A stretch of 64,000 bases of DNA, taken from contig NZ_BLXZ01000005.1 in the NCBI RefSeq assembly GCF_014193675.1, positions 310,001-374,000 on the forward strand, written 5' to 3'. This document shows positions 27,021-57,359 of the stretch, one piece after another. A program made the translations under genes and the position numbers. The notes under the pieces are model-generated. The model saw nothing but the letters and a program-made list of their open reading frames with translations, had not been told where the DNA came from and did not search any database. The stretch comes from Geomonas limicola. Lineage in GTDB: Bacteria; Desulfobacterota; Desulfuromonadia; Geobacterales; Geobacteraceae. Within the stretch, counting starts at the first letter, position 1; each line of letters opens with the position of its first letter.

Positions 27021-27251
27021 CTAATCCCCAGGAGGGACCGAGATCAGCACCGTACGTGCGCTCAGATGACGACTGCTCATGAGCAGCAGCGAGAAGAGTA
27101 GCAACAGCCCGAAGAAGAGGACCGAGGTAGCGATACCCCCGGCCAGCGCAAGCAGGCTCGCCAGGATCAACAGGCACCAGATCGGCAGGTTCGCCATGCT
27201 GAGGTTTAGTGCCGAAGCGGTGGTCGGTGCGATGGTCGTCGTATCCTTCAT
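27021..27251 (-). CDS. Small two-helix membrane protein, unknown function
   Basis: 76 residues with two adjacent hydrophobic helices (LPIWCLLILASLLALAGG and SVLFFGLLLLFSLLLMSS). ATG 27251 is chosen because AAGGAG lies 8 bases upstream; an in-frame GTG at 27332 would give 103 residues with a basic N-terminal arm. Not recognised. It converges on the bidirectional terminator shared with the WecA-like gene. Confidence 0.6.
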   Translation of the reverse strand: MKDTTTIAPTTASALNLSMANLPIWCLLILASLLALAGGIATSVLFFGLLLLFSLLLMSSRHLSARTVLISVPPGD

Positions 27252-27654
27252 GGGGTGGCTCCTTGGATTGTGATTGTCCCGGTCCTTCTTCGGCCCGGCG
27301 TGGAAAAACTTGAACAGTTTTTTTAGATCCACGTCACTCGCCCCCTTTTGGAGCAAGTATAACCACCCATTCAAAATGCGCACCTCTTTGGCGCCTTATT
27401 CAGGAATTTCCTAACTGTAGAATAACGCGAATTAAATCTGGCACGGTAGGGTATGCCGAGACTCCGAATGGAGTGAAATGGGCTGTTCGGAACTTGCGCA
27501 GTGTTTAGATGTTGAACAGCGATCGCTGACAATTAGTTTTTCGGCCGGTGCGCTGGGGTTCCGTCCAGGGACCTGAGAGAACCCGCCCCTGTTTTTCTAC
27601 GAAGATCTCCACGTTCTCACCAAACCTCCTCCAGGCCATTTCATAAAACCCGCG

Positions 27655-28350
27655 ACCAGGCTGTTGCCGAGGTGTTCAGGCAGAAATCCTCAAGGTTATG
27701 CTTGTTGGTCCTATTGTTAAGCTGAACCCCTCGCCGGTAAAAGCTATACGTGATCGTCATCAAGCTAAAATCGGCGCTGGTAGGCTGCACGAGGTCGTCC
27801 TTAAACTAAGATTCTCCCGGGTAAGCTGAAAGGGGGCGTCCTTAACCTAGCTTCGCCCGTAGGTAAGCTACCCGGCGTGAAATTAGCCAAGGTGACGCCT
27901 GCGTAAGCTCGCACGGGGTGGAGTTTCGTTTCGCAGGGGCTTAGCTAAGCTAACGCAGGGGAAGATAAGCTAAGTGTGGTGGCAGTTAAGCTAAGTAAGA
28001 TCGTAGTTAAGCTAACTGCGACCGTGTTTAAGCAATACGCGCCTTTCATTTGAGGGAGGAGTCGCGTTGGGTAAGCAAAACCGACCTGGTTTTTCACTAA
28101 GTGAGGGGATCGGAAGAAATATCGTGGGGTGAAAATGCTTATTCTCCGGTTTTTTATGCTGAATCAGGGGACGATTTGGAGCAACGAGGCTCGCATCGGC
28201 TTATCTGCACCTCACGCTCGGCTGTGAAGCGCTTTTTTAAGCTAACATCGAGGCCACTTAGCTTAACGTGACCCTCACATTAGTTAACGCACCCCTTACT
28301 TAAGAATAAGCAGGTCATGAATAGCTTAAATCGGGAAGATTAAAGAAGTA
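27655..28350. repeat. Phased array of TTAAGCTAA-like motifs, period about 20.8 bp
   Basis: A non-coding ~700-bp tract in which a degenerate core near TTAAGCTAA recurs at almost constant spacing. Cores (position of the central GC or its substitute): 27721, 27743, 27764, 27784, 27805, 27825, 27846, 27867, 27886, 27907, 27949, 27969, 27990, 28011, 28032, 28075, 28096, 28137, 28158, 28241, 28261, 28283, 28304, 28324. Steps are 19-22 bp or twice that. The sequence between cores is not conserved. From 28261 onward some cores read in reverse (TTAGCTTAA). The frame is not preserved and no ORF runs through, so it is not a heptad-encoding gene. Alternatives are an operator, iteron or transposase-site array, or a structured RNA. 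Confidence 0.75.
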
Positions 28351-28383
28351 GCTCGGGGAAGGGCGGGGTTCAAAGCCGGGACG

Positions 28384-28432
28384 AAAAAGATCCGGCAGTC
28401 CAGTCCCCTAATCAAGGGGTGGAACTGCCGGA
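28384..28432 (-). terminator. Rho-independent terminator of the 125-residue gene
   Basis: On the - strand a long stem (TCCGGCAGT...ACTGCCGGA with an inner CCCC/GGGG step) is followed by TCTTTTT. It separates the gene at 28497-28874 from the phased array. Confidence 0.85.
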
Positions 28433-28496
28433 GAGAGAGGCATGGAGCAAGAAACTACGAGGGCAGGTGGGGCAGGGGGAGGCAAGGTTCCTGCGG

Positions 28497-28874
28497 CTAG
28501 GTGGCCGGAGCGGGCTTCAGGGTTCTACGCGCACGGGTCTTGGACTTTTTGGTTACCACGCCGGTATTCAGCAACAACTGGATATCGCTTTGGTCGGCAA
28601 AGATCGCCAGGTAGGAGAGGATCTTCTGGATCATGACGTTGAGCGCCTTGCGCGCCTCCTTGCGAGACGCTATGTCGATTCGGTTGCCCGTGATACCCCC
28701 TTCGAAGGAACGGCGGTACCCGTCGTAAGCATTTTGCAACGCGCTCTGCGATCCGAGTTCGTCGCGCCAGCTGTTTTTGAAGATACCCAGGGTGAACAAG
28801 GTCGTTAAAAAGACGTTGCTGTTGGCGAGAATTTTTGCGTCGGTCCCGGTTGTGTCAAACTTGTACGCGTCCAT
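28497..28874 (-). CDS. Unrecognised 125-residue protein
   Basis: Not recognised. ATG 28874 is fixed by a strong AAAGGAGGT ribosome site six bases upstream. The protein begins MDAYKFDTTGTDAKILANSN, has a moderately hydrophobic segment (VFLTTLFTLGIF, ~21-32), a central polar region, a helix-rich part (KEARKALNVMIQKILSYLAIFADQSDIQLLL) and a very basic, Pro/Thr-rich tail (KKSKTRARRTLKPAP). No signal peptide. The basic tail would suit nucleic-acid binding (inference). It has a good ribosome site and its own terminator, so I take it as real. The phased array lies just beyond that terminator. Confidence 0.7.
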   Translation of the reverse strand: MDAYKFDTTGTDAKILANSNVFLTTLFTLGIFKNSWRDELGSQSALQNAYDGYRRSFEGGITGNRIDIASRKEARKALNVMIQKILSYLAIFADQSDIQLLLNTGVVTKKSKTRARRTLKPAPAT

Positions 28875-29350
28875 GACGTACCTCCTTTTAGGTGGGTGTG
28901 AATTTGTATCGTTGGAAACGCCTAATCCAATAACGGTGCCAATTCCCCCGTAAGGCATGCCAGAGCGTCGTAGTGCCGCGGTTTTGTTTATCCTTTACTG
29001 TTTTCTGCCCAGATGGGACACGATGTCTGTTCTACCCTCTGTTGCACCTTGCCTGAACATCTTTTCACCACACGATTGGCTATATGGTTGGAAATAATTA
29101 ACATGCAAGGTTTGAACAGCGTGATCAAGGGTGCTCCACGCTGTCACCCCAGAGGAAAATCAAAGGCGGGGAAACATAAAAAGTGGGATTTGCCACGGAG
29201 CGACCAAGGGCACGAAGAAAGGCGCTGCTCTGGAGCGGTCGCCGGCAGAGAGGAAAGGAGAGGAAAGGAGACGAAACCACCACAACGGGTTCCGGCCCTA
29301 ATGCTAGCGGTACAAGGCGGAGACCAGTCTTGAGGGAGTCTTTCCTCGCT
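28875..29350. other. Gene-poor stretch
   Basis: No supported gene. The only sizable frames are Arg/Lys-rich and lack a ribosome site. Contains purine-rich runs (29160-29290) and leads into the 180-bp tandem repeats. Confidence 0.4.
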
Positions 29351-29900
29351 GTTGGTCTTCCTCTGCGAACCTCTGTGGTGAGCGGGTTAGGTTTGCCAAG
29401 CTATGTGGGAGCAGCTGAGGCTCGAACCTTTGCCCCATCCCCACCCCGCCCCTCCCCTTGAAGGGGAGGGGGAGTTTCTTCGAGCGGATGACTGGCGTTA
29501 ATCAGCCAAGGTTTCAGCGGTTTACTCCGCCGTTGCTCTTCCTTTGCGAACCTCTGTGGTGAGCGGGTTAGGTTTGCCAGGCTATGTGGGAGCAGCTGAG
29601 GCTGGAAGCTTTGCCCATCCCACCCTGGCCCTCCCCTTGAAGGGGAGGGGGAGTCTTTTCGAGCGGATGGCTGGCGTTAATCAGCTAAGGTTCTAGCTGT
29701 TTCCACCGCCGGTGGTTTTCCTTTGCGAACCTTTGTTGGTGAGCGGGTTAGGTTTGCCAAGCTATGTGGGAGCAGCTGAGGCTGGATGCTTTGCCCATCC
29801 CCACCCTGGCCCTCCCCTTGAATGGGAGGGGGAGTTTCTTCGAGCGGATGACTGGCGTTAGCCAGCTAAGGTTTAGCGGTTTCCTCCGCCGTTTGTCCTC
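29351..29900. repeat. Three tandem ~180-bp non-coding repeats plus a degenerate fourth start
   Basis: Units begin at about 29351, 29532 and 29711, with a decayed start of a fourth at 29891. Each carries GTGAGCGGGTTAGGTTTGCC, then GTGGGAGCAGCTGAGGCT, a CTCCCCTTGAAGGGGAG hairpin, GAGCGGATG and ACTGGCGTTA. Units differ by scattered substitutions, so the amplification is not recent. The central hairpin belongs to the dispersed family also found near 32.97 kb. Confidence 0.88.
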
Positions 29901-49830: not shown

Positions 49831-50042
49831 CGGAACACAATGGACGATTGACAATTGACAATTGACGATGAGAAGAACGCCACAAGACAATTGACAATGG
49901 ACAGTTGACGATTGACAACGAGAAGCATGACACCTTTGATTAAAGATATGCACCGCACCGGTCAAACCAGTCTTTTCTGCTGTTAACTGTCAAATGTCCA
50001 CCGTCAATTTTCAGCCAGTTAAATAACTGTCAATCGCCAATT
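49821..50042. repeat. TTGACAAT tandem repeats with inverted counterparts
   Basis: From 49821 to about 49920, repeated units (A)CAATTGAC(A/G)ATTGAC with 7-base periodicity. From 49981 to 50042 the complementary form recurs (AACTGTCAA, CCGTCAATT, ACTGTCAATCG), so the transcript can fold into a long imperfect stem between cysT and cysW. Traces of the same unit occur after cysP and at 61508-61538. Confidence 0.75.
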
Positions 50043-57280: not shown

Positions 57281-57359
57281 GGGGCTAGGGGCTGGGGGCT
57301 GGGGGCTGGGGGCTGGGCGCTGGGGGCTGGGCGCTGGGCGCTGGGGCTGGGGCTGGGGA
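57281..57359. repeat. G-rich 7-base tandem tract
   Basis: About eleven copies of GGGGGCT/GGGCGCT/GGGGCT upstream of the Ada-AlkA gene. The + strand could form G-quadruplexes. The rest of the 57216-57686 gap holds no gene; an AT-rich stretch with an operator-like pair precedes psrA. Confidence 0.85.

Follow-up and report, generated by a model that had tools for sequence, protein, structure and literature searches.

A helically phased repeat array and a neighboring gene for a small helical protein as a candidate two-part chromosomal locus in Geomonas limicola

Plasmid iterons are direct repeats spaced about two helical turns apart and bound by an initiator protein that is encoded nearby. In ParR-parC, which belongs to the type II (ParMRC) systems, a small protein is encoded beside direct repeats, and the protein families each have their own repeat sequence (PMC9426499). 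According to the sections of that account on these systems, some parC repeats measure 10, 11, or 20 bp, lengths close to a single or double turn of the helix, and a higher-order body forms as the DNA wraps around the protein; ParR, typically of the ribbon-helix-helix type, acts together with ParM, a filament protein, and the usual position of parC on plasmids is ahead of parM (PMC9426499). In Geobacter bemidjiensis, from the same bacterial family as Geomonas, intergenic direct-repeat families of 6 to 42 nucleotides occur throughout the genome, with implications that "remain to be elucidated," and the available text of the report gives neither a period rule nor a tie to a protein family (PMC2996986). 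By analogy, and as far as that text describes them, some of these repeats are very likely the same kind of array as the one described here. The heptamer TAACTGA forms intergenic direct repeats in Beggiatoaceae, Cyanobacteria, and Bacteroidetes, with long arrays in some Bacteroidetes; in the main species, it lies mostly just before start codons, for which translational regulation was suggested, and helical phasing or a partner gene family is not mentioned in the available part of the report (PMC4679880). Within the open-licence PubMed Central literature, judged by title and the start of the abstract, no paper on a pairing of array and protein was found; no described system there ties such proteins to such arrays, and no named family was found.

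The locus examined here lies in a window of 64,000 nucleotides (C5:310001-374000) of the 5.23-Mb Geomonas-type genome (G000, the own genome). It resembles ParMRC in that a direct-repeat array adjoins the gene of a small protein, P0001. It differs in that the Geomonas and other Geobacterales loci are chromosomal and multiple, the arrays lie mostly behind the gene, and no ribbon-helix-helix family was recognized. The five ORFs flanking the window locus were assigned by Pfam to Bac_transf and Glycos_transf_4 (sugar transferases) and to MCPs (two chemotaxis receptors), with one falling into no family; neither an actin-like ParM gene nor a replication initiator gene was among these five. Since no ParM-like gene was present in these ORFs and P0001 had no ribbon-helix-helix match in Pfam, which a divergent member could escape, membership in ParMRC is not supported, and ParR-parC would serve as the nearest working analogy for how the locus operates. 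Unlike plasmid iterons, the arrays are several per genome and differ in their units. Given four like arrays in the genome, the families of the five flanking ORFs, and the failure of the searches run to find relatives of P0001 in plasmids, phages, or viral contigs, no support was found for a relic iteron origin or for transposase-end sites, two options raised in an earlier, sequence-only reading of this DNA. That reading had also excluded CRISPR and coding repeats, and rightly so: the cores are degenerate 9-bp motifs with 12-bp intervals and orientation flips, and the periods of 20.8 bp here and of 22, 41, and 43 bp in relatives are not the frame-keeping multiples of 3 expected of protein-coding heptad repeats. 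A known structured RNA was likewise rejected, as no Rfam 15 match reached the gathering score in the window.

The array occupies positions 27655-28350. Its self-match at lag 21 was 0.360. Over 2000 dinucleotide shuffles, the value was 0.251 (sd 0.017), which puts the tract at z 6.5, and no shuffle came up to it. Self-match at lags 20, 41, 42, 62, and 83 also lay above all 2000 shuffles, which is the comb expected from a 20.8-bp period, so that the period proposed from reading the letters was borne out. Ten TTAAGCTAA cores with at most one mismatch were found in the tract, compared with a mean of 0.53 and a maximum of 4 in 500 shuffles. For the seventeen non-overlapping core sites with at most two mismatches, the fitted period was 20.80 bp and the phase coherence 0.905, whereas the highest coherence among 2000 random site placements was 0.821. 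The helical phasing and the non-coding nature that had been claimed for the tract are supported. The former count of 25 to 30 copies was generous, with 17 sites standing at this threshold and the remainder too decayed for single-site scoring.

The direct-repeat part, with TTAAGCTAA-like cores about 20.8 bp apart, spans 27717..28036 on the plus strand. It is followed by a core-poor stretch (28037..28236, no strand) with recognizable cores at 28071 and 28154. The interval from the core at 28007 to that at 28237 is 230 bp, or 11.0 x 20.9 bp, and the phase is therefore kept across this stretch. An inverted pair, TTAAGCTAA-N12-TTAGCTTAA, then occupies 28237..28266 (no strand), and a tail of decayed, mostly inverted copies on the minus strand runs over 28267..28329, with the final core at 28321. 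The change of orientation, previously put near 28261 together with a tolerance of either orientation, was confirmed and placed at 28258, in phase with the period.

Pattern searches of the own genome returned three further TTAAGCTAA-core arrays, at C4:114 kb (21 bp, 12.0 copies by TRF), C4:517 kb (5.2 copies), and C6:161 kb (5.4 copies). The tract seen alone at the outset is one member of a broader class. When up to three mismatches were allowed, the direct-pair pattern gave 36 matches in this genome versus 1 for the control. All four arrays carry the inverted pair, in the form TTAAGCTAA-N12-TT(A/T)GCTTA(A/T), with 0 to 1 mismatches. The distance from the last close direct copy to the inverted pair was 230, 208, and 230 bp in three of them and 146+83 bp in the other, where one copy lies inside the gap; in three relatives, the interval before the inverted pair was 252, 187, and 293 bp. 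Divided by 20.9 bp, these intervals give 11.0, 9.95, 11.0, 6.99, 3.97, 12.06, 8.95, and 14.02, all within 0.06 of whole multiples, and the phase is thus kept through the gaps.

When 869 kb of the own genome was scanned with an HMM, 7 ORFs of the P0001 family and 16 periodic clusters were identified. Five of the seven ORFs had an array within approximately 1 kb, four downstream and one upstream (C3:190 kb); within the 869 kb scanned, no array was found at C10:200 kb, which encodes a 58% identical paralogue, or at C3:574 kb. The upstream case is a 21-bp array of 12.7 copies at G000:C3:190960-191226 (L155 2461-2726), beside a distant family member. Arrays lacking an adjacent family gene were those at C4:114 kb, C4:517 kb, C6:161 kb, C3:504 kb, and C3:580 kb, and searches for gene remnants beside such arrays gave scattered short matches alone (best E 0.19). 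The array at G000:C3:504620-504860 (in L272) has a GATAGGCTATC-like core in approximately 10 copies of 21 bp, and that at G000:C3:580180-580650 (in L276) has GCCGATAACTATTTC-like units in approximately 19 copies of about 20 bp; no family gene was found beside either.

The partner gene in the window (28497..28874, minus strand) points its 3' end towards the array and encodes P0001, a 125-residue helical protein with a basic tail. Direct inspection of the sequence revealed a ribosome-binding-like AAGGAGGT before the ATG (28880..28887, minus strand). Between gene and array lies a terminator-like hairpin with a T-run in the sense of the gene (28383..28432, minus strand), called by our own finder, which admits loops up to 35. 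The stock terminator scan, limited to loops up to 8, found 2 hairpins in 27380-29000 versus 2.2 in shuffles, and this one was not among them. With our own finder, a terminator-like hairpin was present within 200 bp after the stop codon in 38/47 members of the P0001 branch; shuffling left 3, and the 200 bp upstream gave 7. For the fibronectin-III-like branch described below, the count was 10/28.

The mean net charge of the last 22 residues is +4.4 over 46 members (range 1 to 8), and P0001 reaches +7. The structure model of P0001, built with 46 sequences, is a helical bundle (mean pLDDT 81.6, pTM 0.72) with a low-confidence C-terminus. P0001 matched no entry at E 0.001 or the curated cut-off in Pfam, NCBIfam, PADLOC, or PHROGs, the best Pfam match being TPR-S at E 0.12, below the cut-off. 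Of four proteins compared with PADLOC-DB 2.0.0, P0001 and two others had no match up to E 1, and the fourth matched a methyltransferase model at E 0.033, which was taken as chance. No convincing sequence relative was found in the PDB (best E 0.69), and Foldseek gave no match at E 0.001 for the model of either the Geobacterales or the Bacteroidota protein. VIA-align returned many helical bundles at Z 5.5-8.5, including Avd- and S23-like ones, a range expected for any bundle. Hence, Pfam, Foldseek, and VIA-align provided no recognized DNA-binding fold for P0001.

Homologues were sought in 48 genomes of the bacterial family of P0001, and 50 places in 21 genomes were obtained at E up to 0.001, all of which were examined. 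In a core-specific search of the same 48 genomes, TTAAGCTAA pairs were found in only 6; a core-based scan therefore misses most arrays, and a core-free test was used instead, in which periodicity at 20-22 or 41-44 bp had to exceed a cut within 1.2 kb of the gene. The lower cut was set at the highest value among 200 overlapping chunks of the window; the stricter cut was 0.2. At the lower cut, an array was present downstream of the stop codon in 45/50 homologues and upstream in 1/50 (Fisher p 3e-21), with several of the 45 lying near the cut and three having 458-672 bp of downstream sequence. At 0.2, the counts were 32/50 and 1/50. As background, contig C3, outside the neighborhood of family genes, supplied 591 separate chunks of 1.2 kb, of which 13 passed the lower cut and 4 passed 0.2; these four were an apparently coding repeat, a microsatellite, and two of the gene-less arrays. 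The suggestion that the basic-tailed neighbor belongs with the array was thus upheld by its recurrence in homologous loci. The five loci below the cut downstream were L153, L187, L188, L191, and L213; L187 still has TTAAGCTAA copies with steps of 20, 20, and 21 bp, and L213 has its array upstream instead. A profile (A1) of 46 of the 50 homologues, omitting one fragment and three fibronectin-III-like members, was run against 395 genomes of the phylum and matched the own genome alone, and the basic-tail branch therefore looks narrow.

The period was constant over units that differ from locus to locus. TRF was run on the regions behind 77 family genes, with periods up to 200 and no period filter, and returned rows at 21 bp (43), 22 bp (6), 20 bp (2), and 40-44 bp (27); most others were higher multiples, and four lay at 7-16 bp, while 31/77 regions had no row of score 80 or above. 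In a fractional period fit over the range 18-25 bp, 53 regions passed the score cut, with a median of 20.95 bp and a mean of 21.06 bp, and 52 of them fell between 20.25 and 21.95 bp. Repeat units were common to close relatives only: over 946 pairs, the mean share of 9-mers between units was 0.003 at less than 40% protein identity and 0.064 at 80-90%, a trend for which common descent alone could suffice. Palindromic units were considered as a general rule and rejected, as 3/44 Geobacterales and 6/19 Bacteroidota units passed at 0.05.

When 12 orthologous loci were aligned, the place and phase of the array were kept, as judged by eye, and the letters diverged. Flanking DNA was common to seven of the 12, the window locus shared its upstream flank with one more, and three shared none. 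Conservation of the cores was then measured by defining them in one species and reading them in its sister (G000 and G024, in two directions), with gapped positions left out. In the gene-linked array, 63/76 and 57/63 core positions were kept, against 199/396 and 186/372 in spacers (Fisher p 7e-8 and 3e-10). In a gene-less array before hppA, the corresponding counts were 71/84 and 63/72 for cores and 220/317 and 228/329 for spacers (Fisher p 0.006 and 0.001), and the larger gaps of that alignment resembled whole units by eye (~84, 42, and 20 bp). The cores are thus conserved above the spacers between sister species, to which copy exchange or aligner preference could contribute. Periodicity above shuffled sequence and retention of position and phase in relatives, the two points on which the sequence-only reading could have fallen, were therefore both found.

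In a second branch, homologous to that of P0001 (profile comparison 98.4%, E 4e-15), the C-terminal part is fibronectin-III-like and takes the place of the basic tail, which was absent in the members aligned. The Pfam fn3 model passed its cut-off for one Bacteroidota member, and neither of the two Geobacterales members scanned matched it. This branch gave 257 matches in 22 of the 48 family genomes, and its profile (A2) matched in 3 of 19 genomes of mixed phyla. Thirty of the 257 matches, those with loci, were tested; two had less than 100 bp downstream, and three were also among the 50 above. At the lower cut, an array lay downstream in 16/30 and upstream in 4. In the L084 genome, 21-bp arrays lie upstream of fibronectin-III-like genes at L320, L323, and L324, three of six tested (seven found), and the fibronectin-III-like member of the L049 genome had no array.

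An initial pattern scan, which selects for the TTAAGCTAA core, had returned three records with 21-bp arrays, two from Bacteroidetes and one from an "uncultured bacterium." In the L049 genome, the array adjoins a gene of a different helical family (model mean pLDDT 82.3), and no homology between the Geobacterales and Bacteroidota families was detectable by profile comparison. An alignment of the latter (A3; 10 of 13 places, with three fragments left out) was searched against 60 genomes of the order of L049, giving 34 places in 11 genomes, of which 30 had loci and were tested. At the 0.2 cut, an array was present on one side in 16/30 (8 downstream and 8 upstream), made up of 4/7 in the L049 genome, where the family was first noticed, and 12/23 outside it; among loci with at least 600 bp on both sides, 9/20 had an array. 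The null was 5/108 chunks of other Bacteroidota-labelled loci, counted per chunk, whereas each locus offers two sides. On these counts and the L084 arrays, the pairing of an array with a small helical protein recurs in at least two phyla, by descent or convergence, and is less complete than the 45/50 of the P0001 branch. A GC-rich 21-bp array of approximately 20 units lies downstream of a Bacteroidota-type family gene at L308 (G445, Pedobacter kyungheensis), and phased AT-rich cores therefore cannot be the general principle. At L314 and L319 (G440), TTTGCAAA units recur every 10 to 11 bp, a single helical turn, between two divergent family genes.

Taken together, the tract and the gene at 28497-28874 probably form one two-part chromosomal locus, consisting of a small helical protein and a satellite-like array with units two helical turns apart. 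Unrelated units all keep to two B-DNA turns, and the spacing survives gaps and flips, which argues for contacts on a single face of double-stranded DNA; the recurrence of one protein family beside the arrays points to the neighboring protein as the one that makes or governs the contact. The array would then be read as double-stranded DNA by a protein contacting one face every 21 bp and packing cooperatively. The neighboring protein is the best candidate binder, and it may dock by its helical bundle with the basic tail acting as a clamp; the same protein would probably occupy in trans the three same-core arrays that have no family gene. The leading suggestion for the resulting nucleoprotein patch would be chromosome organization, by anchoring, segregation, or insulation, which is the least certain step and a doubtful one. 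Against the two-part reading stands the incompleteness of the pairing, with 5/50 loci below the cut, 2/7 own-genome ORFs without an array, and several arrays without a family gene, and also the side of the array, which varies between lineages (the fibronectin-III-like, L084, and Bacteroidota loci). The lack of a recognized DNA-binding fold, of a basic tail in the aligned fibronectin-III-like members, and of detectable homology between the Geobacterales and Bacteroidota helical families likewise counts against it.

Part of this evidence would also fit a general factor, such as a nucleoid protein or transcription regulator, that binds the array, the small protein being a neighbor that is controlled by the factor or is hitchhiking. 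The five gene-less arrays and the occurrence of arrays on either side of the gene are in its favor, but under a general factor a single motif would be expected to persist, and here one protein family is found at the array in 45/50 loci despite differing units; moreover, the array of the P0001 branch follows the gene, in most cases after a terminator-like hairpin, and is not in the promoter. We regard this explanation as unlikely. Quite improbable is a role of the array as a transcribed, repetitive RNA, a sponge or scaffold bound by the neighboring protein, although the pairing itself is also compatible with an RNA-protein couple and the fold of the L193 array is far superior to that of shuffled sequence on either strand (z -6.7 and -7.6). 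Of the ten array stretches folded (two L308 stretches off the array were left out of this count), eight had no such signal (z -1.9 to +2.6). The whole window has no Rfam match, the cores change strand while staying in phase, a behavior that would not be expected of a repeat acting as single-stranded RNA, and a period of two B-DNA turns would have no obvious reason in RNA. The terminator-like hairpin also separates gene and array in most P0001-branch loci, though in a minority of the other branch.

The arrays could, finally, be satellites, neutral or selfish, that expand through slippage and recombination, with a period that reflects copying and not a binding partner. Strict arrays such as that at L184, with 21 units that are 95% alike, look freshly amplified, and the array before hppA is present in only 2/19 genomes of the genus, from which it follows that arrays come and go. 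Yet decayed arrays hold their phase through long gaps, cores are conserved above spacers between species (although copy exchange may add to this), and neutral satellites need neither one period over unrelated units nor tracking of one gene family; this origin is accordingly very unlikely.

If the reading of a protein-array locus is extended to the other lineages, an unrecognized class of protein-satellite pairs may tentatively be proposed, with rather less conviction than the two-part locus itself. In Geobacterales and Bacteroidota, small helical proteins from two or more families without apparent kinship would coat adjacent two-turn arrays, and one Geomonas protein would also dress several distant arrays of the same core; the arrays, changing fast in sequence at a constant period, would be bacterial analogues of fast-evolving centromeric satellites and would act as anchors of the chromosome or as marks for its segregation. 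If the two-part reading is right, a testable function falls to a family whose tested Geobacterales members have no accepted match in Pfam, NCBIfam, PHROGs, or PADLOC, and the scattered 21-bp repeats of these genomes gain an explanation. The loci would also offer a natural series of protein/DNA-array pairs in which the sequence changes and the helical period holds, suited to studies of cooperative coating, DNA-protein co-evolution, and bacterial satellite evolution.

Other features were observed around the locus. On the opposite side of the array, a 120-residue ORF with hydrophobic stretches (window 27021-27383, minus strand) had no Pfam family at E 0.001. Next to the locus, at 29341-29891, lies a 181-bp tandem repeat of about three copies. 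The window further contains 7-bp microsatellites at 49837-49918 and 57281-57358 (ACAATTG and GGGGCTG), and similar 7-bp repeats occur on contig C3 at 590-591 kb and 490.8 kb.
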